From Onthophagus taurus (taxonomy: Eukaryota > Arthropoda > Insecta > Coleoptera > Scarabaeidae), in NCBI RefSeq assembly GCF_036711975.1, contig NC_091967.1, forward strand, positions 17,236,001 through 17,300,000: 64,000 bases of DNA, written 5' to 3'. The notes under the pieces were generated by a model that saw only the letters and a program-made list of their open reading frames with translations, did not search any database and was not told the origin of the DNA. Positions 44,201-64,000 of the stretch are shown here, piece after piece (position 1 is the stretch's first letter; every line of letters starts with the position of its first letter). A program made the position numbers and the translations under genes.

Positions 44201-47200
44201 TTTAATTCGCGAGTTGGTAACGAGCAATAAGATCCGTAATCTATGTGTGTAGCTGCAGACATCTCGTTAATAATGCTCGAGCGATGTTTTAATTCATTGT
44301 TAGCGCTCAGCGCGCGGTGTATGCCATCTGTTAAACGTAAATTGGATGATTTGTATCACTGGAAATTCAATAGCACGTGCACGGCAATTACCATTTGTTA
44401 TTACACTTCCCAACCTATGTTTGTTAATCAACGTAAAACTATAATCATTGTTATTATTAAACTGTAGCGGTTTTAATTTGTTTTCAATCAATAAAAACCA
44501 ACATCCTTAAATTTATTAAACATTACCTGCTTCAGTTCTAAAAGGAAAACTTTAATTTCAGGAGCGGTGAAAGTTACTCCAGCTCACGACCATAACGACT
44601 TTGAGGTAGCGAAAAGACACGGTCTCACCTCTATTCAAGTGATCGACGAGGAGGGAAAACTGAGCGATTCCTGCGGGAACTTGGCAGGTATGCGAAGGTT
44701 CGACGCTAGGAAGGCGCTTCTCGACGAGCTGAATAAATTAAATTTACTTCGGGGCACTCAGGATCATCGTATGATCGTGCCCATCTGCGGCAGATCCAGG
44801 GACGTCGTTGAATTTCTGTCGAAACCGCAATGGTTCGTTAGGTGCACCGATATGGCGAAAAGGGCTCTGCGCGATTACGAGAACGGAAATCTTACGATCG
44901 AGCCGGAACACTTCGGGAAGAATTGGACTACCTGGTTAGAAAACATCAGGTAACAACTTTAAATAGCTTTTTTTTTGTTTATAATAATTTAAGAATCAAA
45001 AGATCAAAGTAAATCTTTTCTTATTATCTTCTTTCAATTAAATCAAATTCCTGTTTCCACTTTAGCAATGATACTTTATTGTTGCTTTTTATCTGAAAAA
45101 ACTTTTTGTCAATGTAACATTTAAATTGTGTCATCACATTTAAAGTTCAAAAACATTATGGCGCACAATTTCTCTAACGAAGAACTTATGGACATGGAAA
45201 TACGGGGAATTACGGCTAAATTCTGTGCTTGCGGCTCGTCTGTATGCAGAAAGATTTCCAGGTAGATATCATCCGGCACGTAGATCCTTTTTATGTGTGG
45301 TGCAACATGGCAACATAGAGGAGCAATAAGATCTGTACACATTGTCAATCTCGAGGAGGAGGTATTGAATGTCGTCGAAGAGCAGCATAAGTACTAGAAT
45401 ACTTGCAGAATAACATGTAGTGTCACAACCACAATTTGGGGAATATTGAGGCACAACCAACTCCATCCATATCACGTGCAACGTGTACAAGCCCTACTAC
45501 CAGTGGATAATTCCCCTTGAGTACAATTTTGCGTTCCTGCATCAGCATCAGTTGAACCCAAACTTTACCAATAACATTTTAGACAATCCATCAGCACCCT
45601 GGTTTAGCCCCTCCAAGTTAGCAACTTCCAAATAAGTACAGGGAAATAAATATACTATATACAAGAGACGATGGGGAAGCCGTTCATTGTGGATGACGAC
45701 CATTTGATGTATGAAAGTTGCCGGGTTGATTACTCGAACGTTGCAACATTGGAAAAGTTGCTTACATTTGGTGTTGTGTGACAGTAGCGTTGATTTTGAC
45801 CAAGATTTTCCTGTTTGTCAGATAGCTGTGAATAAGTTTGATCAGATGTGGGGATATTGTTCTTAATAGGATTCTTCAATTTTCTTCCCCTGGTGTTCGA
45901 AATTCGACTTTGCCAAGCTTATGGCCTTATTTGGTGGGCTATACATAACGATGCACATTTTCCTGCCTGCTTCTCCGCCGAAATCGATTTCAGCTCCTAT
46001 TGCTTCGACTGATGTGGTTTCAAATGAGTTTCGCTGATCATCATAACTGAGATCTCCTTTTTGTTTTCAAACTCCAAAAGTTCTTCAGACTTTAAGAATA
46101 TGGTGATGTGTTCTTGTTTGGGTGTGGAGTTTGGCATAGCTTTGTGTATAAAAAAACAATTTTAAAAACAATCGTGATACATTTTCTGTTTATATGTCAA
46201 GATAAAACAATCTAAATTATTATTAAGTTGTCAAAAAATGGGCTCAACCGGGATTTGAACCCGGGACCTCTCGCACCCAAAGCGAGAATCATACCCCTAG
46301 ACCATTGAGCCTCTGCGTGAAAGTTTAAACGGCAGTGAGAGCCAAATTCTAAATATCCCACATTTACACCGTTATCTACGTTATTATCTATAATTACACC
46401 ATTTTTAATTACATTAATAACGTAGGTATATTTACTTTAATATATTACTTATTTTATGGGGGATAGATTACTATCTTATCATCATGATAAGACCATTTAA
46501 TACTTACTGTTAATTTGAATTGGTAAAGAACTCAATTTAAATAATCAATAAAAAGAAACTGATGGATTCTTTCATAAAATTATTTTATATTCCGTTGCTG
46601 CTGTTCTTTTTCCCAGAATAAATTTTCGAAAGACAATACGGGACTAACGAATTCGAAAGCTGCTGGAATCTTCATTAGTCATGCCGTCCCGTTCACTGAA
46701 AATGTATAAGCTAACGCTGGCATCTATGCGGAAAATTTCCAGTATAAACTTCGTAACAATGTTACAGGCGCAGAATTTGGTAAGGCGGAAGCGAAAAGTT
46801 ACGTACTATACAAGATAATATAAGGATGGGTATTTCCGTGAAACAATATAACTTGTAACGATGGTAGATTTATACAAAATTGAGCAATTTATGTTCAGAT
46901 ATCTTCAAGAATTTACTAACTTGTTGAAAAACTTTTTCAAAAAAGGTTGCATTATAATGTAAAGTTGACGGGGACAATGTATCTAACGAAAATGAGTGAC
47001 GACATATCGTTGTAACAGAAGAAGATATACAAACCGATATGGTTTCACACTTCACAAAGCACTAGATTTTAAGTGTTCGCTGAGCAGGAAAAGCCAGCAC
47101 CGCAGGATGGATGTTACTGCTGCCGCAGTCTTGAGAACTTTTCTCGAACTTAAGAAGTATAAAGCTGTCTTTAAAACAGCCACGCCGCAATACGGACAGA

Positions 47201-50200
47201 CGCCTCGGGGATTCGCCAAAGAACTTGGTGTTTGCACCAGTTTTGTCGTGATTTAAACAAAAATCAACTGTAGACGTAATAAAGTAGGTAAAATACAAAT
47301 TAATAATTTCATTAGATTATTTGGAATTTGCAATATATTATCGCACCCCAGAATTATCGAATTCTCTTGTATAGAGCCATTTCAATTCTGGAATTTGGAA
47401 TAATCGGATTTACCCCAGGGTCTACGTGCAGTATGGATAATTTAGTCGGTTGACTCGTTGTCGAAGACTTAGCGGTAGTGGCTATTCCATTTAAGATCGA
47501 ATGTTTCCGATACTGACGCCATAATTACCAGACGTGTTAATGCAGATCCGATTCAGATACAATGCATATTGCCACGATAATGCACAGCATGGAAACGGGA
47601 TTATAGGGAAATTTCCTCCCTTCACGTAATTATTGTCTAGTTTGCCTTGTACCAATGCTTCTCGGTAATGTAATATTAACGCACTCGATTGCCACCTAAC
47701 GAAGTTTGTTGGCAACTACACAAGTCAATTCTCCACTTAATTTAAACTATCGATAAACAACAACAAATTTGTAAAAGTCCACTTCCTCTTCCGAGATTTG
47801 ATTGAAATTTCATATTTGATTATTTATCATAAATGATAATACAAAAACTCATACAGTATATTAAAATTCTGCTATTATTGTATCATATTATTGTAATAAA
47901 ACATTGAAACTGATAATTTGTTCTAAAATTGTCGTAGAATTTAATTTTTGAGAGTTGTTATTTGTTTGAATTATAGGTTTTGCAGTTTGTTCATTTTTTG
48001 TTTATTACTAGTTTGAATTCAATTAATAAAGTTTTAATGACCATTTTTTTTTCAAATAACGGTCGAATTATTATCAGCAAACGACATCGATAAATTCGTT
48101 AACAAGCTACCGCTTGCCGACCGTTTTTTGAGACCTCACTCTTGAGGGTTGCTCACTACAACAGTGGTTGACTCAAATGAGTTTTGGTAGTTCAATAGTT
48201 AATAATCGCAATAATAACTTTTTGTGATTAAATTAAAATAGTTAAATTATTATTCAAAAATTAAATTTAATTTTATTGTCCGTCGAAATGATCATACATT
48301 TTTACATCGCGTTTTTACACCACTTGAGCTATTGTTTTAGTTATAGTGTTGTATAATAAATTTTGCGAAACATATACTAATACTGATTTAACATCTTTAA
48401 CCCTTAGGGCTAATCGATCAGGTTCAAATCCCGCGCTAGCCCATTCCTTTGTCAAACTCCGCTATGATCCATTTTTTTTGTTGCCGAACGACAATTCTAA
48501 CTAAATCCTCAAATAGGTCTATAGCAATACATATGTAAACAGTAAATTATTTATCGCAAAATTATTGCTCGAAATATTACTCTATTGTGTGTCCTCCTTT
48601 GTGGACATTGTTTCAAAAGAATGGCAAGAGAGGCGATAGAGCCATCTCCACTTGGATTTGACAAAAATTACTTAGTTGACAATTAGACAGTAATCAGTTA
48701 GTAATTATCTTTTTGTGTATTTATTGTCAAACTTTAACCGGTTTCGTCACTTTGAACTTGTTTCTGAAGAACGTTGCAACATGGCATCCGATACGTTAAA
48801 CATATTTTGAAAAGGTGCACAGCTTAACCCGAAAGTTTCTAGGGTTAGTGCTATTTGTACTGATAGTGCTAGTATTAGTTCTAGTTTTTGGTTAATATCT
48901 AATCTTTTTCTGGTAAAACATTGCTCGAACAACAATTTTTAACAATCACCATGAGGCTCAATGGTTAGGGGTATGATTCTCGCTTTGGGTGCGAGAGGTC
49001 CCGGGTTCAAATCCCGGTTGAGCCCATTTCTTTTTCCATATTTTAGCAAAATTTTCAGTTTCCTGCAGTTTTACTTTATTGTAATTCTCTATAATATATT
49101 TCCTGTTTGAACGCAAACGTTTGCTAGGTCGTTAAATTTGTTAGATCTGATATACTGACATTACATGATCAGAAGTTCTCGTCAGAAAGTTCACAGCAAT
49201 ATTTAATTTCTTTCTTGCAAAATTATTGCTCGAACAACAATTTTTATCCTTCACCATGAGGCTCAATGGTCTAGGGGTATGATTCTCGCTTTGGGTGCGA
49301 GAGGTCCCGGGTTCAAATCCCGGTTGAGCCCATTTCTTTTTCCATATTTTAGCAAAATTTTCAGTTTCCTGCAGTTTTACTTTATTGTAATTCTCTATAA
49401 TATATTTCCAGTTTGAACGCAAACGTTTTCTAGGTTGTTAAATTTGTTAGATCTAATATACTGACATTACATGGTTAGAAGTTCTCGTCAGAAAGTTCAC
49501 AGCAATATTTAATTTCTTTCTTACAAAATTATTGCTCGAACAATAATTTCTAACAATCACCATGAGGCTCAATGGTCTAGGGGTTTGATTCTCGCTTTGG
49601 GTGCGAGAGGTCCCGGGTTCAAATCCCGGTTGAGCCCATTTCTTTTTCCATATTTTAGCAAAATTTTCAGTTTCCTGCAGTTTTACTTTATTGTAGTTCT
49701 CTATAATATATTTTCTGTTTGAACGCAAACGTTTGTTGGTCGTTAAATTTGTTAGATCTATTATACTGACATTACATGGTTAGAAGTTCTCGTCAGAAAG
49801 TTCACAGCAATATTTAATTTCTTTCTTGCAAAATTATTGCTCGAACAACAATGTTTATCCTTCACCATGAGGCTCAATGGTGTAGGGGTATGATTCTCGC
49901 TTTGGGTGCGAGAGGTCCCGGGTTCAAATCCCGGTTGAGCCCATTTCTTTTTCCATATTTTAGCAAAATTTTCAGTTTCCTGCAGTTTTACTTTATTGTA
50001 GTTCTCTATAATATATTTTCTGTTTGAACGCAAACGTTTGTTGGTCGTTAAATTTGTTAGATCTATTATACTGACATTACATGGTTAGAAGTTCTCGTCA
50101 GAAAGTTCACAGCAATATTTAATTTCTTTCTTGCAAAATTATTGCTCGAACAACAATTTTTATCCTTCACCATGAGGCTCAATGGTCTAGGGGTATGATT

Positions 50201-53200
50201 CTCGCTTTGGGTGCGAGAGGTCCCGGGTTCAAATCCCGGTTGAGCCCATTTCTTTTTCCATATTTTAGCAAAATTTTCAGTTTCCTGCAGTTTTACTTTA
50301 TTGTAGTTCTCTATAATATATTTTCTGTTTGAACGCAAACGTTTGTTGGTCGTTAAATTTGTTAGATCTATTATACTGACATTACATGGTTAGAAGTTCT
50401 CGTCAGAAAGTTCACAGCAATATTTAATTTCTTTCTTGCAAAATTATTGCTCGAACAACAATTTTTATCCTTCACCATGAGGCTCAATGGTCTAGGGGTA
50501 TGATTCTCGCTTTGGGTGCGAGAGGTCCCGGGTTCAAATCCCGGTTGAGCCCATTTCTTTTTCCATATTTTAGCAAAATTTTCAGTTTCCTGCAGTTTTA
50601 CTTTATTGTAATTCTCTATAATATATTTCCAGTTTGAACGCAAACGTTTTCTAGGTTGTTAAATTTGTTAGATCTAATATACTGACATTACATGGTTAGA
50701 AGTTCTCGTCAGAAAGTTCACAGCAATATTTAATTTCTTTCTTACAAAATTATTGCTCGAACAATAATTTCTAACAATCACCATGAGGCTCAATGGTCTA
50801 GGGGTTTGATTCTCGCTTTGGGTGCGAGAGGTCCCGGGTTCAAATCCCGGTTGAGCCCATTTCTTTTTCCATATTTTAGCAAAATTTTCAGTTTCCTGCA
50901 GTTTTACTTTATTGTAGTTCTCTATAATATATTTTCTGTTTGAACGCAAACGTTTGTTGGTCGTTAAATTTGTTAGATCTATTATACTGACATTACATGG
51001 TTAGAAGTTCTCGTCAGAAAGTTCACAGCAATATTTAATTTCTTTCTTGCAAAATTATTGCTCGAACAACAATGTTTATCCTTCACCATGAGGCTCAATG
51101 GTGTAGGGGTATGATTCTCGCTTTGGGTGCGAGAGGTCCCGGGTTCAAATCCCGGTTGAGCCCATTTCTTTTTCCATATTTTAGCAAAATTTTCAGTTTC
51201 CTGCAGTTTTACTTTATTGTAGTTCTCTATAATATATTTTCTGTTTGAACGCAAACGTTTGTTGGTCGTTAAATTTGTTAGATCTATTATACTGACATTA
51301 CATGGTTAGAAGTTCTCGTCAGAAAGTTCACAGCAATATTTAATTTCTTTCTTGCAAAATTATTGCTCGAACAACAATTTTTATCCTTCACCATGAGGCT
51401 CAATGGTCTAGGGGTATGATTCTCGCTTTGGGTGCGAGAGGTCCCGGGTTCAAATCCCGGTTGAGTGAGCCCATTTCTTTTTCTATATTTTAGCAAAATT
51501 TTCAGTTTCCTGCAGCTTTACTTTATTGTAATTCTCTATAATATATTTCCTGTATGAACGCAAACGTTTGCTAGGTCGTTAAATTTGTTAGATCTAATAT
51601 ACTGACATTACATGGTTAGAAGTTCTCGTCAGAAAGTTCACAGCAATATTTAATTTCTTTCTTGCAAAATTATTGCTCGAACAACAATTTTTATCCTTCA
51701 CCATGAGGCTCAATGGTCTAGGGGTATGATTCTCGCTTTGGGTGCGAGAGGTCCCGGGTTCAAATCCCGGTTGAGCCCATTTCTTTTTCCATCTTGTAGC
51801 AAAATTTGCAGTTTCCTGCGGTTTTACTTTGTTGTAGTGCCCTATGATATATTTTCTTTTTGAACGAAAACCTTCTCTATATCGTAAAATTTCTTAATTC
51901 TGATATTATACTGACACTAATGTGTCAAAATGGTCCTGAGTACGTTCACAGCAATATTTAATTTCTTTCTTGCAAAATTATTGCTCAAACAACAATTTTT
52001 AACAATCACCATGAGGCTCAATGGTCTAGGGGTATGATTCTCGCTTTGGGTGCGAGAGGTCCCGGGTTCAAATCCCGGTTGAGCCCATATCTTTTTCCAT
52101 ATTTTAGCAAAATTTTCTGTTTCCTGCAGTTTTACTTTGTTGTAATTCCCTATGATATATTTTCTTTCTGAACGCAAACCTTCTTTAGGTCGCTAAATTT
52201 CTTAGTTCTGATATTATACTGATATTAATATGTCAAAAGTTCTCCTGAGAACGTTCACAGCAATATTTAATTTCCTTCCTGGAAAATTATTGCTCGAACA
52301 ACATTTTTTAACAATCACCATGAGGCTCAATGGTCTAGGGGTATGATTCTCGCTTTGTGTGCGAGAGGTCCCGGGTTCAAATCCCGGTTGAGCCCATTTT
52401 TTTAAAAAATATTTTAGCAAAATTTTCAGGTTCCTGTAGTTTTACTTTGTTGTAACTCGCTGTGATATATTTTCCTTTTGAACGTCAACTTTTGCTAGAT
52501 CGTTAAACTTCTTAGTTCTGATATACTGACATAAATATGTCAAAAGTGTTCCTGAGAATGTTCACAGCAACATTTAATTCCTTTTTTGCAAAATTATTGC
52601 TTGAACAACACTTTTTAACAATCACCATGAGGCTCAATGGTCTAGGGGTATGATTCTCGCTTTGGGTGCGAGAGGTCCCGGGTTCAAATCCCGGTTGAGC
52701 CCATATCTTTTTCCATATTTTAGCAAAATTTTCAGTTTCCTGCAGTTTTACTTTATTGTAATTCTCTATAATATATTTCCTGTTTGAACGCAAACGTTTG
52801 CTAGGTCGTTAAATTTGTTAGATCTAATATACTGACATTACATAGTTAGAAGTTCTCGTCAGAAAGTTCACAGCAATATTTAATTTCTTTCTTACAAAAT
52901 TATTGCTCGAACAATAATTTCTAGCAATCACCATGAGGCTCAATGGTCTAGGGGTATGATTCTCGCTTTGGGTGCGAGAGGTCCCGGGTTCAAATCCCGG
53001 TTGAGCCCATTTCATTTTGCATATTTTAGCAAAATTTTCAGTTTCCTGCAGTTTTACTTTGCTGCAATTTCCTATGATATTTTTCTTCTTGAACGCAAAC
53101 CTTTTCTAGATCATTAAATTTCTTAATTCTGATATTATACTGCCACTAACATGTCAAAAGTGATGCTGAGTACGTTCACAGCAATATTTAATTTCTTTCT

Positions 53201-56200
53201 TGCAAAATTATTGCTCGAACAACAATTTTTAACAATCACCATGAGGCTCAATGGTCTAGGGGTATGATTCTCGCTTTGGGTGCGAGAGGTCCCGGGTTCA
53301 AATCCCGGTTGAGCCCATTTCTTTTTCCATATTTTAGCAAAATTTTCAGTTTCCTGCAGTTTTACTTTGCTGCAGTTTCCTATGATATATTTTCTTTTTG
53401 AACGCAAACCTTTTCTAGATCGTTAAATTTCTTAATTCTGATATTATACTGACACTAACATGTCAAAAGTGATGCTGAGTACGTTTACAGCAATATTTAA
53501 TTTCTTTCTTGCAAAATTATTGCTCGAACAACAATTTTTAACAATCACCATGAGGCTCAATGGTCTAGGGGTATGATTCTCGCTTTGGGTGCGAGAGGTC
53601 CCGGGTTCAAATCCCGGTTGAGCCCATTTCTTTTTCCATATTTTAGCAAAATTTTCAGTTTCCTGCAGTTTTACTTTGCTGCAGTTTCCTATGATACATT
53701 TTCTTTTTGAACGCAAACCTTTTCTAGATCGTTAAATTTCTTAATTCTGATATTATACTGACACTAACATCTCAAAAGTGATGCTGAGTACGTTCACAGC
53801 AATATTTAATTTCTTTCTTGCAAAATTATTGCTCGAACAACAATTTTTAACAATCACCATGAGGCTCAATGGTCTAGGGGTATGATTCTCGCTTTGGGTG
53901 CGAGAGGTCCCGGGTTCAAATCCCGGTTGAGCCCATTTCTTTTTCCATATTTTAGCTAAATTTGCAGTTTCCTGCAGTTTTACTTTGTTGTAATTCCCTA
54001 TGATATATTTTCTTTTTGAACGCAAACCTTTTCTAGATCGTTAAATTTCTTAATTCTGATATTATACTGACTGTAACATGTCAAAAGTGATCCTGAGTAC
54101 GTTCACAGCAATATTTAATTTCTTTCTTGCAAACTTATTGCTCGAACAAGACTTCTTAACAATCACCATGAGGCTCAATGGTCTAGGGGTATGGTATTTT
54201 TCTTTTGGACGTTAAATATATCTAATTCCTTCATTCTCAAGTAGCGTGAATGTTGACACATCAACGTCACTTGATTTGCAAACTACCAACTTAGCGCCAT
54301 GGGTTGGAGTCTCCTTAGTGGAATATACAAGGACGTAGATAAGTGGTTTATTTTGCTATCGAAAGGAATTTAGAACTGACAGCTTTTATTACTTCCTAGG
54401 TTCAATTAGAATGTCAGATACGAACACAACTCAAGATATTTAATTTTCCCCGTAATTATATAATATTTACGCAATAATTAGCCAAATTAACGTAATAGAC
54501 ACGTTAAACCCTCTGATTTTCCCTATCAAATCTAGCCCTTTAACGGGGAATCACGTTCGTAATCAGAGCCTCGGCCCTAGGGGGTGTTGGGGGTATTTAC
54601 GGAGAACAGTGGCACCTTCATTAACCACCGCCCCCCGTTCAGTCAGTATCACTGCGATATCTCGTTCCGTTTAATTACAGGGATTGGTGTGTGTCGCGCC
54701 AACTGTGGTGGGGCCACCGGGTGCCGGTCTACTTCTGCGGATCGGATGTCGACACCACCCCCAAAGCTTCAAACACCCGGACTACGATCGCCGTCGCTGC
54801 GCGGAACATTGATGAGGCGAGATCCAAAGCGGCTGCCCTTCTATCACGACCCCCCGACACCCTTCACATTCGACAAGACGAGGATGTCCTGGACACTTGG
54901 TTTTCATCGGCACTTTTACCATTTTCAGCATTTGGATGGCCTCAACAGGTAAGCGATTTTTTTTCATCCTTTTAGGAAAAGAACTTTAATTTGGACGAAA
55001 AAATTTGCTGAAAAAAGCTTTGGCATTGTGATGCAAGGTTAACACGACTTTTATACGTTATTTAGAAAATCCTCACGCGACTTTTTTATGTAACATTTAG
55101 GTTGGCAGTCTTGGCGATTATTTAATAGGACCACTGTTTTACCAGACAAATTAAATGAGCATAAACATACCAATTTTTGGAAAATGATCTACCTCTAGTT
55201 AATGCATGATGCTGTTGCACCACATTTCGGCCTTGGAACAATGAGTAGTTCGCATGCTTGAAGTTGACGGTGCTTGAAGGTGATTAAACAGAGAAATTGC
55301 CAAAGCAGGATGATACGAAATCTCGGTAAGCAGTTAATCACTTCTTTTAAGCTTCTTGGCGTTTTTGAAATGATAGAAAGAGAAGAATAAGGTACTGGGA
55401 ACGAGAACAATCAATGTGCCGTAAGAGAAGTGGAATTGCACGTTTGTGATTGAGGATGCTGGAGCGCGGACATTTTCGAGCGAAACCAAGTACCAAAATC
55501 AGTACATCAGTACAACCTATGGTTTAATAGAAATGTTCTTGTATTTTAAGTACTTGGAATTTTCTGTCTTGTTGTTGTTATGTAAGAAGAAGAGACAAGA
55601 TTTTTTTGTGCATGGTATCTTAGAAGCACTTTCTAAAGAATTTTAGACCCTATAACAAAGTAACATCAAAGTAAACCAACTTAATAGCAACCCAATCAAA
55701 TCTCAAAACTTGTCAACATTGAAGCATCACTATTACAAAGTAACTCATTACAGAAGTAACCCAATCATATCACAACGAAAGCCAACCCCAAAATAACTTA
55801 ACCCGTTATTGGTCGCTAGGTCAATCATAGCATACGAAAACAAGTAGCTATGTGAAAGAAAATCTCACATAGCGACCAATGACGGGTTAACCACAAAGTG
55901 ACCTAACCCAACCTCCAAAACTTCTCAACCTTAAAGGAATATAATTACAAATTCATTTATCTCCAAAGCAAGTCAATCGAACCCCAAAGCTACTCAACTA
56001 GAAAGTACCTCAAATTTTAAAGCAACTCAACAGCAAAGTAACTCAAACAAAAGTCACCTTACCCTATCATAAAGTTTTTCAACGTTAATGATTACTAAGA
56101 TTAGTAAAATTTCTAAGATTACTATTAATCGGAAAACCAAATCGTTGGATTGGCAGAGGTGGGCCAGTTGCATGGCTATCACATTCTCCAGATTGCATTC

Positions 56201-59200
56201 TGAAACAAAACTTTTGTGGGGCTTGTCTACATTTCATACTTTAGAAGAGCTGCGCGACCGGATCAGTCATAGTCTTCGTGTAGTCCGCGATAGCCCTAGA
56301 ATTCTTGAGCGGTTTGACGACACTAAGCAATAATAAAAATTGTTACTAATTAATCTCAATTTTGTAATTAGTCTTGTTACATAAATTACAATAGATCATA
56401 CAATTAGTCACACAATTAAACCCATGGTCGCTTATGCTTCATTGATATGGTGGCCATGACGAATTACAAGACTGCGCAATAACTAAGCTTAACTTAAGCT
56501 CGGATACAACATTTTTTTAAGTTGAAGTTCTTGCCATAAACTTTTGCACTGTTTTGGACCTTAAAATGGATAGAAAGGGGCATCGATAAACATGTGTGAA
56601 AATTTTCGGAAAGGTTCGCCTAACACCTACTGATATTAAGCAATACATAAGGATCTAGATGTGTCCTAAACCTTTGGAGGACTTAAGTTACAATAGATCC
56701 TATAGGTCACGGTGACGGATGGGGCCGCTCCCCTCAGCCTGACAGCAATAATAATAATAATACATACATCATGTTGGTGAAATTTGGCCAAGCAATTCAG
56801 AGACGCCTGTATACTTATGTAGGTTGATTATAGCTCATATATAGCTCACATATGCCTTTTACTCTTAATAAATATTAGTGTTTCTTTTTGTATTCCAACT
56901 TTGTTACTATTGATGTTTTCCCTGAAGATGATTTAATTAACAACGAAATCGGTAATAAATAAAATTTTGAGTATCATTGAAAAAAAAACAAAACAATTTA
57001 TTTATCTAAAAGAAAAAATCTTTGTAATTAGATTGATCGTCGTAAAAATACATTTTCTTATTTTATGTAGGACGCTTCTTCCTCAAGTTTTGTGAAAGTA
57101 GGTAGAAGTCGTAAAACGACCAGAGGTATGATAAGGCGACTGGCGTTGTGAGACGTACAAATCCGGGTTTACGATCGGATAATAATTTTGAATACCGCAA
57201 TAAAGTTATAGTGGGCTGTAAAAGAATTTCGGAGATAAAATTCTTAAATGCCAATGTGATAACGTATTATCTTGGTAGAAAGATAGATGTTTTAACAAGC
57301 GGCTCAATGGTCTAGGGGTATGATTCTCGCTTTGGGTGCGAGAGGTCCCGGGTTCAAATCCCGGTTGAGCCCATTTTTTTTTTTTAATTTTAATTTTTAC
57401 ACTTGAATTTGAAAGGTATCTACGATTCATTTTATGTTTAACTTATCTTAAGTGGTCTAATGTAATTTGTCATGTAACATATTGATCAGAAGTTGTTATT
57501 CCTTGTTTCACAAATAAACTTTAACGAGCGTAAAACATATCGGCATCATCACATCAAGGGTTCGGTTTCTCCCATCTTCTTCCTTCTCGATACGTATGTA
57601 CGATAGGGAAACTGCAAACAACGGAATGCATTTACGTCGGCTTTGTGCTGCTTAACTACGTTATTGCCGACCGAACTCTGGTAATTCATGCCGAAGGTAC
57701 TTCACCTCCGTGAAATGGGCGGGCGGCGCCAGTTTCCAAACTGTGAAGTGATGAAGATAGCTGACGCCGATGATGCCGGAAGACTTTCGAAACGCGGAGG
57801 GAGCGAGCTAAGACGTAATTTGCGAGCCCACTTGTCAAGTAAACGTCGTAATTTGGCCCTCCTTCGAACGTCTCCTCGTCCTTTCGTTTTCCACTTGAGC
57901 CGCGATCGTTCAAATTACGAACTCTCGTTAACTATTAATTACGTGTTATCGCTTTTGTATACTTTACCTATATTCGTATTGAAGATTCATTAATTAATTA
58001 AATTTAGGAATACAATCATAAAGTCATTAATGTTTTTTGTTACAGACTGAAGATCTTAAAAAATTATATCCTCTATCAATCATGGAAACTGGCCACGATA
58101 TTTTATTTTTTTGGGTAGCAAGGATGGTTATGTTAGGTACACAATTAACTGGTCAACTTCCGTTTTCTAAAATTCTTCTGCATGGAATAGTTTGTGATGC
58201 GCATGGAAGGAAAATGTCTAAAAGCCTTGGGAACGTAATCAGCCCTGAAGATGTTATACATGGAAGTACTTTGAAGGTAAATTTATTTTTCAGTATTAAT
58301 CTTTAATTAACTAAATGAGTGTTAGGAATTAGAGAATGCTCTGGACAAGAATTACAAATCTGGACTGATTACAAAGGAGGAATTCAATAAAGCAATCGCT
58401 GGACAGAAGAAAATGTTTCCAGAAGGAATACCTCAATGTGGTGCTGATGCCTTAAGGTTTACTTTATGTTCCCATAATATTAAAAGTAAGTATTATTGCT
58501 CATACAGTAATAATTTTGCCACAAAAAAGTGTGGTATTATAAGGGTTAAAAAGTTGTACTGGTAATTTCATATAACTCGCAATATACATATGAATGCAAT
58601 AGTTACGAAACTATTATGCACTTGCACTGTCCCACATAAAATGCATAGCTTAATAGTACAGGCATTGGGGGGAAAATTCTAGGTGTAGTGTTTTTTTTAT
58701 ATACAGGGTGATTTATAGCATACAGAGTAGACTAAAAAGGTGGTACTAGGGGCCAATTTGAAGATTTTTCTTAATAATGTTTTGACCACAACTTAATAAT
58801 CACAAAGATATAGAACGTTAAAGTTGAACAAATGGCCGAGCATTGCCATATTGTACTGTTGACACTATTTTACATTATTTATATTATCTATAAACGATTT
58901 ATAAAGCGTAAAATAAAACACTTGACGCACGATCGCAAAACACATCCGCTCTTTAGCGATGCACAAATCGAACTGAGGTGTAGTGTTAGTTTTACTTTTC
59001 GTTCAATAAAAATATACCACAATCTAGCGCTGAATAACAATTAAAACTAGAACTAACACTAGACCTAGAACTAGAAAGTTAACTAAACCCGAAAGTTTCT
59101 AGTTCTAGGTATAGTGTTAGTTCTAGTTTTACACTTGCACTGTCACTAGAACTAACATTAGACCTAGAACTAGAAACATTTGGGTTTAGCCGTACGTCTC

Positions 59201-61698
59201 TTAAGACGGCTAAACCCGAATGATTCTAGTTCTTCTTCTAGCGCAAATATGCAACATAGTGATATTTTATGCTAACTAGAGCTACCTATTAGCCGTCTTA
59301 TTACGGCTAAACGGAATATTTCTAGTTCTAGGTCTAGTGTTAGTTATAATACATTATCTAGACATGTTGCATTTTATGTGGGATAAAGTAAGCATCTTAA
59401 GTGAAATTCACTGTATAACAATATAATCCTCTATTCCTTAAAATTCCTTCCGAGAATTAATACCGACGATTTCTCGAAAACTACCTCAATTACACTAATG
59501 AGCTACCCTCGAGATAAAATTTTATTTGAACAACCCTACAAATGTTAGGGGCCGCTTCATCTTTATTGGAAACGTCCGGCCGTTTTCCCTTTCCCTCTTT
59601 TCCTCCTTAGACCTTAAGACGCAACTTTCCTAAACTTAGTAGGGTCCGGGATAGCAATACCTTCCGAGTGGTCATAACACATGTCCTAAAACACGAGTCC
59701 CGGCCGTTTCGGCCCCAATGCTTCCCTATTGAAGAGATCTTATTAAGTATAAATGGAACTGCTACTACTCGAAAACATATCAAGAAATAAAATTGATAAG
59801 TATCGAACGATATTAAAAAATAAGTGGAAAAAACTTTGTGTGTATAAAAGAGAGTTTTTGATGTAGCATGTGTAACCCACGGGTGCTGCAACGAAAGCTC
59901 CAAAGCTTTCGAAATAAAACTTTCAGAGTTTGAAATCCTGCAGGATACAGACTGCGTCGGTAACATCGAAGAGGGTACGGTGCTATTCGCTTTGCACGGG
60001 GTTAACCACGACAAGAAAGAACCTGCAGCGATTCTATCCTGGCGGGATAACCGTACTTAAGAAGGCCCCAAAGCGGCTCACCTGCACGCGAAGTGGCCCC
60101 GAATCCCCTCCTCCCGTGGCGAAATTAAAATCGCTTCTTCTCCTTTGCAGTCTTTTATTGAGATCCGACTTTACGGAGTTGAGAATCTCTATAACAGCCG
60201 TTGCAAGCCCGAAATTACGAACCGGCTCTTGTACTCGAGGGACTTTAACAGGCGTTCTTTGGAACTTTACAAATATTTGTCGTTTCATCTTGGATTCATA
60301 GGAAAATTGCATCTGAAAAATTATATTAAAATTGTTCTAAAATTGCTATATTAAAGAACAGTTTTATTTTATATTTTGTGTTAGCTAATAGTTAATTACT
60401 CAATGACGACGCCCATGTAAAGATGTATATACTGTTAATATGTGCATAAGCTTGTTTAGTAGTCAGTTTTAGTTTGCTTCTCGGGGGGTTATAGTTTGTT
60501 TGAAAAGGGGAGCTACTACTAGTATGAGTAAAACCGCCGCAAACTTACCATGGCGTAAAGTATTACCTCATTAAATTTAACTTTATGCAATAATAACAAA
60601 ACAATAACTTTAAAAGTAAGCGCCCTATATTTTCATGTTTTAAAATCAATTTTAAACAATTCTTTTCTTTTTCTGTCTATTTCTTTACAGTATAGATACC
60701 GAAATCTTAATAAAACTGTATTTTATTAAAAACAACCTTTGTTCTTTGTCTTAACATTGAAATCTCTTCAGACAAGACTTTCGAACCCTCGGAATCCAAT
60801 ACACTCGATCTCAATAAAACCGTCGCACATCCGTGCCAATTTATGGCAGGTCGGACTGATCCTCGAATGATGTCCGTCGTCGGTTTGTCCCGGGTCGGAC
60901 TTTATCGATCTACTACTATTTTTCGATGAAACTTTGACAACATCCCGGTGACATCCCCAAAGAATAAAACCTATGGCGCGGCGTGGTGCCTAAAGGCATG
61001 CAATAAAATCGAAGACAATATAGTCCGGATTTATCTACCGCGAAACTTTTTTAATAAAACGGAAAGAGGGCCTGGAGCGCGTGGGTAAGGCAGAGAAGAT
61101 GAAGAAAAAATAACGGTATGACACAAAGGCGGGTGTTCCTTTGGGGGAACCACCGAACGGACTGGGGAATATATGAATGTGCTACGTGGTCACGTATAAG
61201 GAGAGATATGTCATTTTAGGGGAAAGTGGCCCTATTTGGTACGAGCACGTGTAATAACTTGAAGGTAATGAAATAGGAGATGATTTATAGTACTCGCAAA
61301 AAAACGGTCCTTACAAGATGTCAAAATGTATACCTTGATATATCCTTAAATTGTTTTTATTATTTCGTTATTGTTGGTTTTATTTTCTAGTTTTTATTTC
61401 GTTTTTATTAGATCACTTCGTAAATTTCGATGTGCAAGAATGCAAAATCAACAAATTTTTCGGGAACAAGATATGGCAGGCTGTAAAGTTTGCGAACAAG
61501 TGGATTGAAACAGTATTGGTTGCTCAAGAAATTGGAAACTTAAAATACGAATCGCTGGGCAAAATGGATAAATGGATACTAAGTAAACTTTCCGGTATGG
61601 TGAAGATTGTAAATGATTCCATGGAAAGGTACGAATTTCACAACGCTACCGCTGCTCTGAAAAACTTTATCTATTATGAATTCTGCGATATTTATTTG
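20217..61698 (+). CDS. VARS2: Valyl-tRNA synthetase, probably mitochondrial; C-terminus beyond window
   Basis: Ten exons join without a frame break: 20217-20310, 20371-20548, 22551-22732, 27755-28069, 34869-35051, 44562-44949, 54681-54948, 58046-58276, 58326-58485 and 61412-61698, giving 762 residues. The enzyme charges tRNA-Val. Residues 1-31 are basic and lack acids ([19 protein letters not shown]), like a mitochondrial targeting peptide. HLGH (the HIGH motif) is at 75-78, the editing-domain start [10 protein letters not shown] is in exon 5, [17 protein letters not shown] is in exon 7, and KMSKS is at about 592-596. Exon 10 ends at a donor (TTG|GTAAGT) just as the C-terminal anticodon-binding region begins. 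Human VARS2 has 1,063 residues, so roughly 300 lie outside the window. The gene exceeds 41 kb through large introns that host tRNA genes and transposons. Assignment to the mitochondrial rather than cytosolic enzyme rests on the presequence. Confidence 0.93.
20371..20548 (+). CDS. VARS2: VARS2 exon 2 (HIGH motif)
   Basis: Encodes the start of the Rossmann catalytic fold, including [20 protein letters not shown] with the ATP-binding HIGH-type motif. It ends at the donor AGATG|GTGAGA in phase 2, and the next exon supplies the last base of the tryptophan codon. Confidence 0.92.
20549..22550. other. VARS2 intron 2
   Basis: Two kilobases of AT-rich sequence. I found no gene, tRNA, transposon coding piece or obvious repeat. 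Confidence 0.5.
22551..22732 (+). CDS. VARS2: VARS2 exon 3
   Basis: Encodes [20 protein letters not shown] and then [20 protein letters not shown], the class Ia segment with the DHAGIATQ element conserved in valyl-tRNA synthetases. Phase 1 donor ATTG|GTGAGA. Confidence 0.92.
24373..24897. repeat. Direct repeat copy A (about 525 bp)
   Basis: This stretch, starting TTACTATACTGTCC and ending ACTTACTTGCAATTT, recurs in the same orientation at 25536-26057 with scattered substitutions and small indels. The two copies flank a Tigger-like coding fragment. No family was recognised. Confidence 0.85.
24898..25535 (+). pseudogene. Tigger-type transposase fragment between direct repeats
   Basis: Plus-strand frames encode [31 protein letters not shown] and a downstream acidic stretch with [15 protein letters not shown]. 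This is the C-terminal part of a Tigger/jerky transposase. A second, partly colinear copy lies at 28960-29600. Pieces are rearranged relative to that copy: the block at 24898-25030 corresponds to 29459-29595, which lies downstream there. Confidence 0.7.
25536..26057. repeat. Direct repeat copy B (about 522 bp)
   Basis: Second copy of the 24373-24897 repeat, same strand. Both ends of the similarity are sharp (TTACTATACTGTCC at the left, CTTACTTGCAATTT at the right). Confidence 0.85.
27755..28069 (+). CDS. VARS2: VARS2 exon 4
   Basis: Encodes [20 protein letters not shown], then a stretch with [20 protein letters not shown] and the beginning of the editing insertion. Base composition is clearly more GC-rich than the flanking intron. 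Phase 1 on both sides. Confidence 0.92.
28276..29750 (+). mobile_element. Degraded Tigger/pogo-type DNA transposon
   Basis: Starting at 28312 ([20 protein letters not shown]), broken frames run through a CENP-B-like DNA-binding part and VDKTGLF-like remains. They continue with [20 protein letters not shown] and LTLLCN, and end with [15 protein letters not shown]. The right end (29720-29750) reads CGTAAATGGAGGGACTATTG, and CAGTAGT stands at the left end, both typical of Tigger termini. Many stops and frameshifts show that it is inactive. Confidence 0.7.
30900..31740 (+). other. GC-rich stretch with unassigned open frames
   Basis: Base composition changes abruptly to GC-rich. Overlapping open stretches occur, including one at 31121-31381 with basic and polar residues ([15 protein letters not shown]). 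The region could be the remnant of a retroelement gag-like gene. I cannot name a family, and no intact gene or splice structure is visible. Confidence 0.3.
33240..33331 (-). mobile_element. Terminus of a mariner-like or MITE element
   Basis: On the minus strand, from about 33330, the sequence begins TTACAGGGTGTCACAAAAGT followed by ACGGGAAC. ACAGGGTG-type ends are common in insect mariner-like elements and also occur at 58704, 62164, 62287 and 62586. The other end was not found. Confidence 0.4.
34869..35051 (+). CDS. VARS2: VARS2 exon 5 (editing domain)
   Basis: Encodes [20 protein letters not shown], the conserved TTRPET element of the CP1 editing domain that removes mischarged threonine. 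It then encodes [19 protein letters not shown]. Phase 1 at both borders. Confidence 0.93.
35436..35500 (+). mobile_element. Pogo/Tigger-like terminal sequence
   Basis: ACAGTATAATCTCGATATAA followed by CCAACCTCG resembles the outer end of pogo/Tigger elements (CAGTA..CTCGATATAAC). Only this end is visible; it lies beside the hAT remnant. Confidence 0.4.
35650..36770 (-). pseudogene. hAT transposase remnant
   Basis: Minus-strand pieces include [30 protein letters not shown] and, near 35740-35890, [20 protein letters not shown], then [18 protein letters not shown]. The last is the C-terminal hAT dimerisation domain. Stops and frameshifts separate the segments. It is not closely related to the intact hAT at 10854-12822. 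Confidence 0.65.
38570..38800 (+). pseudogene. LINE reverse transcriptase fragment
   Basis: The plus strand encodes [20 protein letters not shown], a decayed version of the reverse-transcriptase YADD catalytic box (here HAED), then [16 protein letters not shown]. Catalytic residues are changed and a stop interrupts the frame. Confidence 0.6.
40938..41009 (-). tRNA. tRNA-Pro(UGG), solitary copy in VARS2 intron 5
   Basis: A 72-base cloverleaf on the minus strand with acceptor stem GGCTCAA/TTGAGCC, anticodon stem CTCGC/GCGAG and loop TTTGGGT (anticodon TGG), plus the intact B box GGTTCAAATCC. It is identical to the main array sequence and is followed downstream by a T8 terminator. Flanks are unrelated to the array spacer. 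Confidence 0.93.
41770..41950 (-). pseudogene. LINE reverse transcriptase fragment
   Basis: The minus strand reads [20 protein letters not shown] followed by ALFNFVM, the RQGDPLSP block of non-LTR reverse transcriptases with one substitution. Short and out of context. Confidence 0.65.
43238..43341. repeat. Foldback (inverted) repeat
   Basis: GTGGGCTAGAAACATAATTA... reads back as ...TAATTATGCTCTAGCCCAC, with arms of about 47 bases carrying a few mismatches. The centre is CG-rich (CGACGAGGTCGTAGACCGAG). Such a structure could extrude as a hairpin; no coding potential. Confidence 0.75.
43357..43734. mobile_element. MITE-like element with inverted ends
   Basis: TTTATCTACGACTGCT (43358-43373) is the exact inverted counterpart of AGCAGTCGTAGATAAA (43719-43734). 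Inside lies a second palindrome around 43633-43680 (GTTACGTAATGAA / TTCATTACGTAAC). It encodes nothing. The foldback at 43238 adjoins it on the left and may belong to the same unit. Confidence 0.6.
43795..44090 (+). pseudogene. Internally deleted jockey-like LINE
   Basis: Plus-strand frames give a gag zinc-knuckle remnant ([17 protein letters not shown]), then directly downstream a reverse-transcriptase tail ([16 protein letters not shown]). In intact elements these lie kilobases apart, so the middle has been lost. Confidence 0.65.
44562..44949 (+). CDS. VARS2: VARS2 exon 6 (editing domain end)
   Basis: Encodes [20 protein letters not shown], the conserved TPAHD.ND element of the editing site, then [20 protein letters not shown]. 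Enters in phase 1 and leaves in phase 2 (ATCAG|GTAACA). Confidence 0.93.
45155..45560 (+). pseudogene. DUF4817-type mariner transposase remnant
   Basis: Plus-strand frames give [13 protein letters not shown], then in another frame [20 protein letters not shown], and later [14 protein letters not shown]. These match in order the N-terminal DUF4817 region (RLYAQQFPERRHP) and HPYHIQLVQEL of the open frame at 62927-63988. Frameshifted and truncated. Confidence 0.65.
45640..46140 (-). pseudogene. Jockey-like LINE endonuclease fragment
   Basis: The minus strand encodes [20 protein letters not shown], the start of an apurinic-type endonuclease domain of non-LTR elements, then degraded downstream sequence ([13 protein letters not shown]). 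Truncated and frameshifted. Confidence 0.6.
46240..46311 (-). tRNA. tRNA-Pro(UGG), solitary antisense copy in VARS2 intron 6
   Basis: Identical 72-base tRNA on the minus strand, 2.6 kb before the array and in the opposite orientation to it. It is followed by a T6 terminator. The flanking bases do not match the array spacer. Confidence 0.93.
48406..48441 (+). pseudogene. tRNA-like relic
   Basis: GGGCTAATCGATCAGG followed by TTCAAATCCCGC and GCTAGCCC resembles the end of a tRNA gene (B box and 3' acceptor strand), with the first part collapsed. The acceptor-like ends GGGCTA/TAGCCC pair. Too short to be a gene; source isotype uncertain. Confidence 0.35.
48955..49025 (+). tRNA. tRNA-Pro(UGG) array copy 1, one base shorter in D arm
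   Basis: The D-arm/A-box reads TGGTTAGGGG instead of TGGTCTAGGGG, a single-base deletion, so the gene is 71 bases. Anticodon, T arm and acceptor are intact. The deletion may weaken folding or the internal promoter. Confidence 0.8.
49260..49331 (+). tRNA. tRNA-Pro(UGG) array copy 2, canonical
   Basis: Canonical 72-base sequence. First unit of the four-unit block that is repeated 1,221 bp downstream. A TTTCTTTTT terminator follows. Confidence 0.95.
49566..49637 (+). tRNA. tRNA-Pro(UGG) array copy 3, D-loop variant
   Basis: GGGGTTTGATT replaces GGGGTATGATT in the D arm, one A to T change. The same change is found in copy 7 at 50787, its partner in the duplicated block. Confidence 0.9.
49871..49942 (+). 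tRNA. tRNA-Pro(UGG) array copy 4, A-box variant
   Basis: TGGTGTAGGGG replaces TGGTCTAGGGG (C to G) in the D stem and A box. Shared with copy 8 at 51092. Confidence 0.88.
50176..50247 (+). tRNA. tRNA-Pro(UGG) array copy 5, canonical
   Basis: Canonical 72-base sequence, last unit of the first duplicated block; partner is copy 9. Confidence 0.95.
50481..50552 (+). tRNA. tRNA-Pro(UGG) array copy 6, canonical
   Basis: Canonical. Its downstream spacer is identical to that of copy 2 (shared TTTCCAGTTTGAACG and TTTTCTAGGTTG), marking the start of the second block. Confidence 0.95.
50787..50858 (+). tRNA. tRNA-Pro(UGG) array copy 7, D-loop variant
   Basis: Carries the same GGGGTTTGATT change as copy 3, exactly 1,221 bases upstream. 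Confidence 0.9.
51092..51163 (+). tRNA. tRNA-Pro(UGG) array copy 8, A-box variant
   Basis: Carries the TGGTGTAGGGG change of copy 4, exactly 1,221 bases upstream. Confidence 0.88.
51397..51472 (+). pseudogene. tRNA-Pro array copy 9, broken acceptor stem
   Basis: The 3' end reads CCGGTTGAGTGAGCCC instead of CCGGTTGAGCCC: a 4-base TGAG duplication extends the 3' acceptor strand. Pairing with GGCTCAA can be shifted but leaves an extra bulge, so it is probably not processed normally. Body and anticodon are otherwise canonical. Confidence 0.75.
51707..51778 (+). tRNA. tRNA-Pro(UGG) array copy 10, canonical
   Basis: Canonical 72 bases. Spacer divergence rises from here on (unit length 308-310). 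Confidence 0.95.
52015..52086 (+). tRNA. tRNA-Pro(UGG) array copy 11, canonical
   Basis: Canonical 72 bases; the trailer reads CATATCTTTTT rather than CATTTCTTTTT. Confidence 0.95.
52324..52395 (+). tRNA. tRNA-Pro-like gene with UGU (Thr) anticodon, array copy 12
   Basis: The body matches the other copies, but the anticodon loop is TTTGTGT instead of TTTGGGT, so position 36 is T and the anticodon becomes TGU (reads threonine ACA). Stem, A and B boxes and acceptor are intact. ProRS recognition normally depends on G35 and G36, so charging is uncertain. Confidence 0.85.
52631..52702 (+). tRNA. tRNA-Pro(UGG) array copy 13, canonical
   Basis: Canonical 72 bases with the CATATCTTTTT trailer also seen in copy 11. 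Confidence 0.95.
52937..53008 (+). tRNA. tRNA-Pro(UGG) array copy 14, canonical
   Basis: Canonical 72 bases. The trailer CATTTCATTTTGC has an interrupted T run, so termination may be weaker. Confidence 0.93.
53245..53316 (+). tRNA. tRNA-Pro(UGG) array copy 15, canonical
   Basis: Canonical 72 bases, TTTCTTTTT trailer. Confidence 0.95.
53554..53625 (+). tRNA. tRNA-Pro(UGG) array copy 16, canonical
   Basis: Canonical 72 bases. The spacer is nearly identical to that of copy 15, suggesting recent exchange between neighbours. Confidence 0.95.
53863..53934 (+). tRNA. tRNA-Pro(UGG) array copy 17, canonical
   Basis: Canonical 72 bases, last complete unit of the array. Confidence 0.95.
54172..54193 (+). 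pseudogene. tRNA-Pro array copy 18, truncated
   Basis: Only the first 22 bases remain (acceptor strand, D arm, GGGGTATG); after that unrelated sequence starts. This is the right breakpoint of the array. Confidence 0.9.
54681..54948 (+). CDS. VARS2: VARS2 exon 7
   Basis: Encodes [20 protein letters not shown], the conserved W.SRQ..WGHR.P element of the catalytic fold after the editing insertion, and later [20 protein letters not shown]. Strongly GC-rich compared with the intron. Confidence 0.93.
55650..56090. repeat. Degenerate CAAAGTAACTCAACC-type repeat with internal hairpin
   Basis: Variants of AAAGTAACTCAACC recur many times with irregular spacing. Inside, AACCCGTTATTGGTCGCTA (55799) pairs with its inverted copy ending at 55889 (ATAGCGACCAATGACGGGTT). 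Between these arms lies a second pair, TAGCTATGTGA / TCACATAGC. No coding potential. Confidence 0.6.
56120..56335 (+). pseudogene. DUF4817-type transposase C-terminal fragment
   Basis: In the plus strand, one frame reads [16 protein letters not shown]. This matches VGRGGPVRWPPRSPDL around the third catalytic residue of the 62927-63988 transposase. A neighbouring frame continues with [20 protein letters not shown] as in the downstream helices. Frameshifted. Confidence 0.55.
57301..57372 (+). tRNA. tRNA-Pro(UGG), solitary copy in VARS2 intron 7
   Basis: Canonical 72-base sequence on the plus strand, preceded by AACAAGC and followed by a long T run (T11). It carries no array spacer. Confidence 0.94.
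58046..58276 (+). CDS. VARS2: VARS2 exon 8 (KMSKS)
   Basis: Encodes [19 protein letters not shown] (58083 onward) and [20 protein letters not shown] with the KMSKS loop that stabilises the adenylation transition state. Phase 0 at both ends; intron 8 after it is only 49 nt. Confidence 0.95.
58326..58485 (+). CDS. VARS2: VARS2 exon 9
   Basis: Encodes the segment following KMSKS, including [20 protein letters not shown], a signature of valyl-tRNA synthetases. Phase 1 donor TAAAA|GTAAGT. Confidence 0.93.
58486..61411. other. VARS2 intron 9
   Basis: Contains a palindrome-rich element (58631-59382), an ACAGGGTG-type terminus at 58704, and CpG-rich patches at 59440-59700, 59930-60290 and 60750-61200 without convincing genes. 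Confidence 0.5.
58631..59382. mobile_element. Palindrome-rich non-coding element with inverted ends
   Basis: CCCACATAAAATGCA (58631-58645) is exactly inverted at 59368-59382. Inside are nested hairpins. Arms 59043-59077 and 59096-59130 match over 35 bases with one mismatch. 59148-59175 pairs with 59319-59346. GGGTTTAGCCGT pairs with ACGGCTAAACCC-like sequence near 59180-59217. The recurrent word is CTAGAACTAGAAA. A related stretch (AACCCGAAAGTTTCTAG) occurs at 48825-48895. No transposase is encoded. Confidence 0.65.
61412..61698 (+). CDS. VARS2: VARS2 exon 10
   Basis: Encodes [20 protein letters not shown], then [10 protein letters not shown] and [20 protein letters not shown], the end of the catalytic domain and the first helices of the anticodon-binding domain. 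Donor TATTTG|GTAAGT in phase 0; the next coding exon was not found in the remaining 2.3 kb. Confidence 0.93.
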
Positions 61699-61792: not shown

Positions 61793-61864
61793 GGCTCAAT
61801 GGTCTAGGGGTATGATTCTCGCTTTGGGTGCGAGAGGTCCCGGGTTCAAATCCCGGTTGAGCCC
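61793..61864 (+). tRNA. tRNA-Pro(UGG), solitary copy in VARS2 intron 10
   Basis: Canonical 72-base sequence on the plus strand, 94 bases after the VARS2 exon 10 donor, followed by a T10 terminator. No array spacer. Confidence 0.94.
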
Positions 61865-62159: not shown

Positions 62160-62640
62160 ATATACAGGGTGAGTCAATAGTGCGGGGACGGAAGATAGTG
62201 GCTATACTATTGAAAATAAAAGAAATGTTTTTATGCCATCATATATTACCATCAAAGCTGTATCGATTAAAATTATTTTCAGCTATACAGGGTGTTTCAC
62301 TATTCCAGGACCATACTCAACTTCATTTTTTTAAATGGAACGCTATGTATTTTTTTACATATTCTGATTTGCTGTCTTAAATGCTACGACTGCATATCTT
62401 GTTTTTAAATTTTGAATGCAAGGTTGCCAAGTTATTATTTTTTTTGTGAAAAAGTTTGAAAATTCAGGTGGTCACTTAAAATTCGTTATCTGCATTAATA
62501 TTGAATATTGAAGATTGCAATTTGGGGTGTCGATAAACAAAGCTTGGGTCTTTCGAACACTGTTCATACTATTGGATATCATTGTACAGGGTGTTTAGCA
62601 AAAGCGATTAATTTATGCAATGTTTGGAGAACCATAACTT
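62160..62640. mobile_element. Nested ACAGGGTG-type transposon termini
   Basis: TACAGGGTG occurs in the same orientation at about 62163, 62286 and 62585. The last two are each followed downstream by TTTTAAATGGAAC(G/A)C sequences, showing related subterminal regions. The rightmost is the probable left end of the element carrying the transposase at 62927-63988. Confidence 0.55.
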
Positions 62641-62926
62641 TGTTATTTTAAATGGAACACCCCGTATTTTTCTAAGGTTTCGGATAGCCTTATTAATTCT
62701 CTTTTATTGTTGTTAAGCATATGATATATCTAATACGTGTACTTTTTGAGAAAATTAGACTGTTTTAAAAATGTCAGTATAAACGTGATTTATTTACAAA
62801 ATGTAGGCTATGGAACAACATTTTTGAACATATAAGTAAGTTTATGTCGAAAAAGATATAGGTGCAATACACAATATTAAAAAAAATACAATGAAGAATT
62901 AAGCAACAACCATTAACAAAACAAAA

Positions 62927-63988: not shown

Positions 63989-64000
63989 TTTAATCAAACA

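Follow-up and report, generated by a model that had tools for sequence, protein, structure and literature searches.

A tandem array of proline tRNA genes inside an intron of a valyl-tRNA synthetase gene in the beetle Onthophagus taurus

A stretch of 64,000 nucleotides from the scarabaeid beetle Onthophagus taurus (assembly GCF_036711975.1, contig NC_091967.1, positions 17,236,001 to 17,300,000 of the forward strand), hereafter the window, harbours the first ten exons of a valyl-tRNA synthetase (ValRS) gene and, within one of its introns, a head-to-tail array of proline transfer RNA (tRNA) genes. Coordinates refer to the window unless a contig is named; the contig of the window is denoted C2. 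The gene model, built by hand from splice sites over the window and the 10 kb next to it, comprises 13 exons that form an uninterrupted frame of 980 amino acids (aa); the last exon was extended to its stop and one more exon is possible. All exons lie on the plus strand: exon 1, which encodes a basic, presequence-like segment, spans 20217..20310 and is followed by exon 2 (20371..20548), exon 3 (22551..22732), exon 4 (27755..28069), exon 5 (34869..35051), exon 6 (44562..44949), exon 7 (54681..54948), exon 8 (58046..58276), exon 9 (58326..58485) and exon 10 (61412..61698), exons 11–13 being located past the window end.

The 980-aa protein matches the NCBIfam model valS with 892 bits (cut-off 612) and the valyl-tRNA synthetase 1gax in the PDB with an E value of 8e-156. 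Residues 1–31 are rich in Lys and Arg and contain neither Asp nor Glu, and the catalytic domain begins soon after. The basic N terminus, the early start of the catalytic domain and an apparent resemblance to human VARS2 are the grounds for taking the gene as that of the mitochondrial enzyme, and the host is probably VARS2, the name used below. Another ValRS gene resides on contig C1 at 23.09–23.12 Mb. In the genome search with valS, 5 of 29 candidates were scored, the window's own exons falling outside those five, and a match on contig C7 is one that we infer to be an isoleucyl-tRNA synthetase. No tRNA genes were found in three pieces of the C1 gene, which cover part of it.

The array occupies intron 6 of VARS2, between the end of exon 6 (44949) and the start of exon 7 (54681), on the sense strand. 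Of the 21 tRNAs that ARAGORN detects in the window, 17 form a head-to-tail run at 48955–53934, all on the plus strand. Every one of the 21 passes the cut-off of the Rfam tRNA model, and the 17 array units score 49.4–58.4 bits against a gathering score of 29. Tandem Repeats Finder (TRF) reports a single array at 48894–54193 with a period of 305, 17.3 copies and a score of 8293; units follow one another at 305–310 bp, and their spacers are homologous and likewise arranged head to tail. The right edge of the array falls inside a tRNA, as unit 18 (U18, 54172..54193, by TRF and sequence match) retains only the initial 22 nt. A sequence-only reading of the window had proposed 17 full units and a truncated one in intron 6 of a valyl-tRNA synthetase gene, on its sense strand: ARAGORN, TRF and Rfam agree on the array, and the hand-built exon model and the valS match bear out the host. 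The copy number derives from one assembly.

The same reading took all units as tRNA-Pro(UGG). This is what ARAGORN returns for 16 of the 17, the exception being U12, whose anticodon is UGU; moreover, seven bodies are altered. Intact tRNA-Pro(UGG) bodies, identified by ARAGORN and by genome match, are those of U2 (49260..49331), U5 (50176..50247), U14 (52937..53008), U15 (53245..53316), U16 (53554..53625) and U17 (53863..53934); ARAGORN and the spacer alignment further place the intact U6 (50481..50552), U10 (51707..51778), U11 (52015..52086) and U13 (52631..52702). Among the altered units, numbered here with canonical tRNA positions that we assigned ourselves, U1 (48955..49025, 71 nt, 51.4 bits) has lost one nucleotide in the D arm, U3 (49566..49637, 54.3 bits) and U7 (50787..50858) carry A21T, U4 (49871..49942, 49.4 bits) and U8 (51092..51163) carry C12G, which disrupts a D-stem pair, and in the 3' acceptor strand of U9 (51397..51472, 49.7 bits) four nucleotides have been inserted. 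Because the U3/U7 and U4/U8 pairs are copies made by a block duplication described below, the altered bodies amount to five independent events. The fifth, G36U in U12 (52324..52395), turns the anticodon UGG into UGU within a tRNA-Pro body, and ARAGORN calls the gene tRNA-Thr. Prolyl-tRNA synthetase recognises G35 and G36, and for this reason U12 is expected to lose proline charging. Anticodon shifts as a class have been catalogued for eukaryotes (PMC3923123), and U12 is a local case.

The units appear equipped for transcription by RNA polymerase III (Pol III). The B-box stretch GGTTCAAATCC is by eye invariant in all 17, and in each of them a run of four to seven T residues begins no more than 7 nt past the tRNA end: T5 at +6 in 15 units, T7 in U12 and T4 in U14. 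As each unit has a body with an internal promoter region and a T-run terminator of its own, independent Pol III transcription is the most likely mode of expression of the intact units. Plain minimum-energy folds yielded no cloverleaf even for an intact tRNA, and these folds were not used. On the opposite strand, 12 open reading frames (ORFs) of 86–93 aa are strewn across the array (49141–54025, minus strand) and have in common a stretch antisense to the tRNA. They are taken as spurious, so that minus-strand coding in the array is rejected; they are a trap for gene annotation.

The spacers record how the array grew. Two subfamilies can be distinguished, A comprising U1–U9 and U13 and B comprising U10–U12 and U14–U17, with U13 thus an A spacer amid B units. 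Divergence between A and B amounts to 13.7–19.7%, and the maximum is 6.0% within A and 16.3% within B, the spacer of U12 being the most divergent; in the alignment the last unit is one base short, hence one gap in the final column. The spacers of U6, U7 and U8 equal those of U2, U3 and U4, respectively. This reflects an exact repeat of 1,074 bp with zero mismatches (49171–50244 = 50392–51465, offset 1,221 bp) that corresponds to a block of four units, and the duplication of this block is the most recent growth step. Interleaved subfamilies and an exact block repeat are as would be expected from unequal exchange.

Such a perfect repeat might also be thought to betray an array expanded by the assembler, or the units might belong to a tRNA-derived short interspersed nuclear element (SINE) or a satellite. 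Assemblers can miscount an exactly duplicated 1,074-bp block, and the copy number could be a miscount to that extent. An assembly artefact of the whole array is ruled out by spacers that differ by up to 19.7%, which are no stuttered copy. A SINE or a dispersed satellite is ruled out too: in a search of the 290.8-Mb genome all 18 spacer matches fell inside the array. An artefact or a repeat element is consequently an extremely improbable account.

Bodies and spacers have changed at very different rates. When substitutions (and these alone) were counted by parsimony on a spacer-built tree over 72 tRNA sites and 234 spacer sites, the whole array showed 3 body changes against 118 spacer changes (p 1.1e-10), and subfamily B 1 against 76 (p 4e-8). 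The body indels of U1 and U9, both of subfamily A, were left out of this count. Bodies are thus kept in the more divergent subfamily B and may drift in the younger A. In the 60 nt on each side of the tRNA, 47 changes were counted against 59.5 expected (p 0.019), a difference too weak to build on.

Beyond the array, VARS2 accommodates further tRNA-Pro genes. ARAGORN and the gene model place four intact tRNA-Pro(UGG) genes in the window, two of them antisense, in intron 5 (40938..41009, minus strand) and intron 6 (46240..46311, minus strand), and two on the plus strand, in intron 7 (57301..57372) and intron 10 (61793..61864). Past the window, by genome search and gene model, intron 10 also contains a tRNA-Pro(AGG) gene (L009:3230-3301; C2:17303230) and a tRNA-Pro(CGG) gene (L009:4178-4249; C2:17304178), the only CGG gene found. 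Searches of the genome (290.8 Mb, 33 contigs) returned the same 28 places whether the query was the UGG or the CGG gene; the counts that follow are lower bounds. These places comprise the 17 array units, the four other UGG genes, the AGG gene and the CGG gene of VARS2, one UGG gene at 9.16 Mb on C2, three AGG genes on C7 and C6, and one pseudogene on C1. Identity to the UGG consensus is 100% over 72 nt at 15 of the 28, namely ten array units, the four elsewhere in VARS2 and the C2 gene at 9.16 Mb. The pseudogene (C1:36374591-36374641) is a tRNA-Pro(UGG) from which part of the T arm has gone, apparently through a deletion between two CCCGG repeats, and it still has a T-run at its 3' side.

With the C1 pseudogene excluded, the full-length tRNA-Pro genes found number 27, of which 23 lie in introns 5, 6, 7 and 10 of VARS2. 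The sequence-only reading had remarked that the array sits in a gene for another tRNA-charging enzyme, which is correct as to the host and understates the case. Given a gene length of 53.7 kb and a genome size of 290.8 Mb, chance would put 0.005 of the 27 there. When the array is counted as one, 7 of 11 separate tRNA-Pro loci lie in VARS2, against a probability of 2e-24 under random placement: chance placement is excluded, and a local duplication or some other local process must be invoked.

The concentration of these genes invites the idea that VARS2 is the control locus for the genome's proline tRNAs, in which the nested Pol III genes are permitted or held in check by the RNA polymerase II (Pol II) activity or the chromatin of their host, so that the cytosolic supply is set there and coupled to mitochondrial translation capacity. 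The VARS2 residents do include all three isoacceptors and the sole CGG gene found; furthermore, a study of Caenorhabditis elegans reports an influence of a host promoter on its intronic tRNA, and conservation of 32–52% of tRNA-host pairs across other Caenorhabditis species (PMC4999229). If it were true, proline tRNA supply would track the expression of a mitochondrial translation enzyme. We nevertheless consider this idea unlikely: local duplication alone explains the clustering, two of the 23 VARS2 copies are antisense, and three AGG genes and one UGG gene are retained elsewhere in the genome.

The dispersed genes carry traces of their own history. Between the UGG bodies and the AGG genes of C7 and C6, both partners of the acceptor pairs 6:67 and 7:66 have changed with pairing retained, and the changed 6:67 pair is common to the CGG and AGG genes of VARS2. 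Such changes fit functional tRNAs with a shared local ancestor, or alternatively conversion on a local scale. The VARS2 AGG gene is a mosaic, with an acceptor stem like that of the local CGG gene and an anticodon arm like that of the dispersed AGG genes. The flanks were also compared, the threshold being the best score among 60 shuffles plus 4 points. None of the flanks of the dispersed VARS2 copies and of the C2 copy passed it against the array flanks; a strong pass was obtained only for two array units against each other. The pairs 40938/61793, 57301/61793 and C7/C6b passed on the downstream side only, by 6–10 points and apparently by virtue of their T-runs. To the left of the array, 48421..48573 (plus strand) contains two short colinear matches to the unit (33 bp at 82% and 31 bp at 87%), and its long local alignment scores of 74 and 73 compare with best shuffles of 92 and 101; it is possibly a decayed older unit.

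A genome-wide scan with the Rfam tRNA model, in which 63 of 13,490 candidates were scored and 20 regions inspected, brought up no tRNA-Pro among the places identified. It did reveal two homogeneous clusters of other isotypes: five tRNA-Phe(GAA) genes in 6.3 kb (C2:13543000-13549400), and four tRNA-Lys(UUU) genes in about 3.2 kb accompanied by one aberrant tRNA (C1:31800000-31809999). A tandem repeat with a period of up to 500 was looked for in both clusters and none was found; in this respect the proline array is unlike the clusters sampled. As for short repeats, TCAGG in six tandem copies had 0 matches in the assembly, and TTAGG in six copies had 2 overlapping internal matches, compared with 10 for the reversed control.

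The orientation of the array raises the question of whether the host is affected by its guests. Pol III traffic, or cloverleaves in the pre-mRNA, might slow Pol II or change the splicing of exons 6 and 7 and in this way tune VARS2 output, and a further route would be the cutting of pre-mRNA cloverleaves by RNase P and RNase Z. All 17 units lie in intron 6 in the sense orientation; in reporters, splicing is promoted by tRNA-like cloverleaves (PMC7722341), and Polr3e suffers interference from a Pol III unit that lies, antisense in that case, within its first intron (PMC5358760). Published intronic cases make host effects plausible (PMC4999229, PMC5358760). However, the constraint on the bodies fits tRNA function equally well, U4 and U8 persist despite a disrupted D-stem pair, and the splice sites of the intron are GT-AG, separated from the array by 3.9 kb and 0.5 kb. 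An effect on the host is for these reasons decidedly unlikely.

We favour, as the probable explanation, a birth-and-death array of Pol III-transcribed tRNA-Pro(UGG) genes nested in the Pol II gene VARS2. Proline tRNA genes would have been resident in VARS2 introns beforehand, as the seven separate loci with flanks that are no longer clearly alike suggest. One UGG copy in intron 6 would then have been duplicated along with about 235 bp of flank, and unequal exchange would have expanded the array to 17 units, the four-unit block duplication coming last. The intact units would be transcribed singly by Pol III, apart from the VARS2 transcript, and would add to the cytosolic supply of tRNA-Pro(UGG) by raising the intact genes found from 5 to 15. 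Selection would preserve the pool of intact bodies, mutant copies being tolerated among the newest units. The host gene would play no role: since valyl-tRNA synthetase is not the enzyme that charges tRNA-Pro, its identity is probably a coincidence compounded by local duplication.

Several observations weigh against this explanation. Only 10 of the 17 bodies equal the consensus tRNA-Pro(UGG) and 7 are altered; the A box is displaced in U1 by its deletion; and the terminators, T4–T5 in 16 of the 17 units, are shorter than the T6–T13 of the 10 other tRNA-Pro genes compared. Subfamily A, with 2 body changes against 23 spacer changes (p 0.09), shows no significant constraint, and part of the array may be decaying. 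Short gene-conversion tracts, instead of selection, could lie behind the identity of the bodies, two causes that the constraint test does not separate. A low-stringency blastn comparison aligns the array with the copies at 40938 and 61793 at 76–77% over 173–198 columns, the identical body included, and a distant common flank may conceivably unite them. Lastly, same-strand intronic tRNA genes of C. elegans have reduced Pol III occupancy (PMC4999229).

Taken to the extreme, these points would make the array a silent, decaying collection of escaped copies that gather defects while the dispersed copies do the work. The seven altered bodies and the weak constraint in subfamily A would be in keeping with this, and the Arabidopsis SYY cluster introduced below offers a precedent, being silenced in most tissues according to PMC12308677. 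Such decay is hard to reconcile with subfamily B, which holds most of the spacer changes and shows a single body change against 76 in its spacers, or with the ten intact bodies, and we regard a silent, decaying array as very unlikely.

Precedents exist for tandem tRNA arrays and for tRNA genes in introns alike, and tandem duplication has been described as an origin of tRNA clusters (PMC4981973). The tRNA-Pro ('P') and Ser-Tyr-Tyr (SYY) clusters of Arabidopsis thaliana are analogous in that few isotypes, proline included, are involved and in that the SYY core has been enlarged by tandem duplication with variant and pseudogene copies; in contrast to the VARS2 array, the available portion of PMC12308677 does not describe them as intronic or as lying in a protein gene that hosts all proline isoacceptors. 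At human 1q23.3 the tRNA genes of a tandem repeat are conserved between human and mouse and the rest of the unit mostly is not; its units are GC-rich, CTCF-binding and 7.3 kb long, with 9–43 per allele, whereas those of VARS2 are intronic, 305 bp long and contain a single tRNA (PMC4041453). Entamoeba also possesses arrays of tandem tRNA units, but these comprise almost all genomic tRNA genes, with up to five per unit and short tandem repeats between genes (PMC2652664). C. elegans shares with the beetle identical tRNA genes in introns of protein genes, 44% of its 609 tRNA genes being intronic, and no tandem array within one host gene is described in the available text of PMC4999229. Human nimtRNAs are likewise intronic tRNA cloverleaves; unlike the VARS2 units, which look cytosolic, they derive from mitochondrial tRNAs and in 293T cells reportedly do not undergo the processing of bona fide tRNAs (PMC7722341). 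In drosophilids large tRNA clusters rapidly become rare, according to PMC2888827. In a literature search that covered few subscription journals, no published account came up of a tandem array of one isotype within a synthetase-gene intron, or of a single gene in which most tRNA-Pro genes reside.

The window contains further features. Intron 10 of VARS2 harbours a Mariner-like element (62168–64000 plus the first 740 nt past the window) with a transposase-like ORF of 356 aa (62927–63997, minus strand) between what appear by eye to be long inverted repeats. Upstream of the gene, a 472-aa ORF (11070–12488, minus strand) resembles by eye the transposase of a DNA transposon. Several ORF pieces at 3130–3633, 9066–9691 and 14607–15786 on the plus strand look secreted and resemble one another, with motifs such as DRFCG in common; again by eye, they perhaps represent a small local family of CUB-like proteins.

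The array is a compact natural experiment on the gain and loss of tRNA gene dose: constrained units of greater age stand beside young units that carry mutations, one unit has a shifted anticodon, and a block has been duplicated without a mismatch. The mutations of some units act as tags by which part of the array output would be separable by tRNA sequencing, a separation that is impossible for identical tRNA genes. Since VARS2, a single Pol II gene, houses 23 of the 27 tRNA-Pro genes that were found, it offers one locus at which interference between Pol II and Pol III, and their co-regulation, could be approached.

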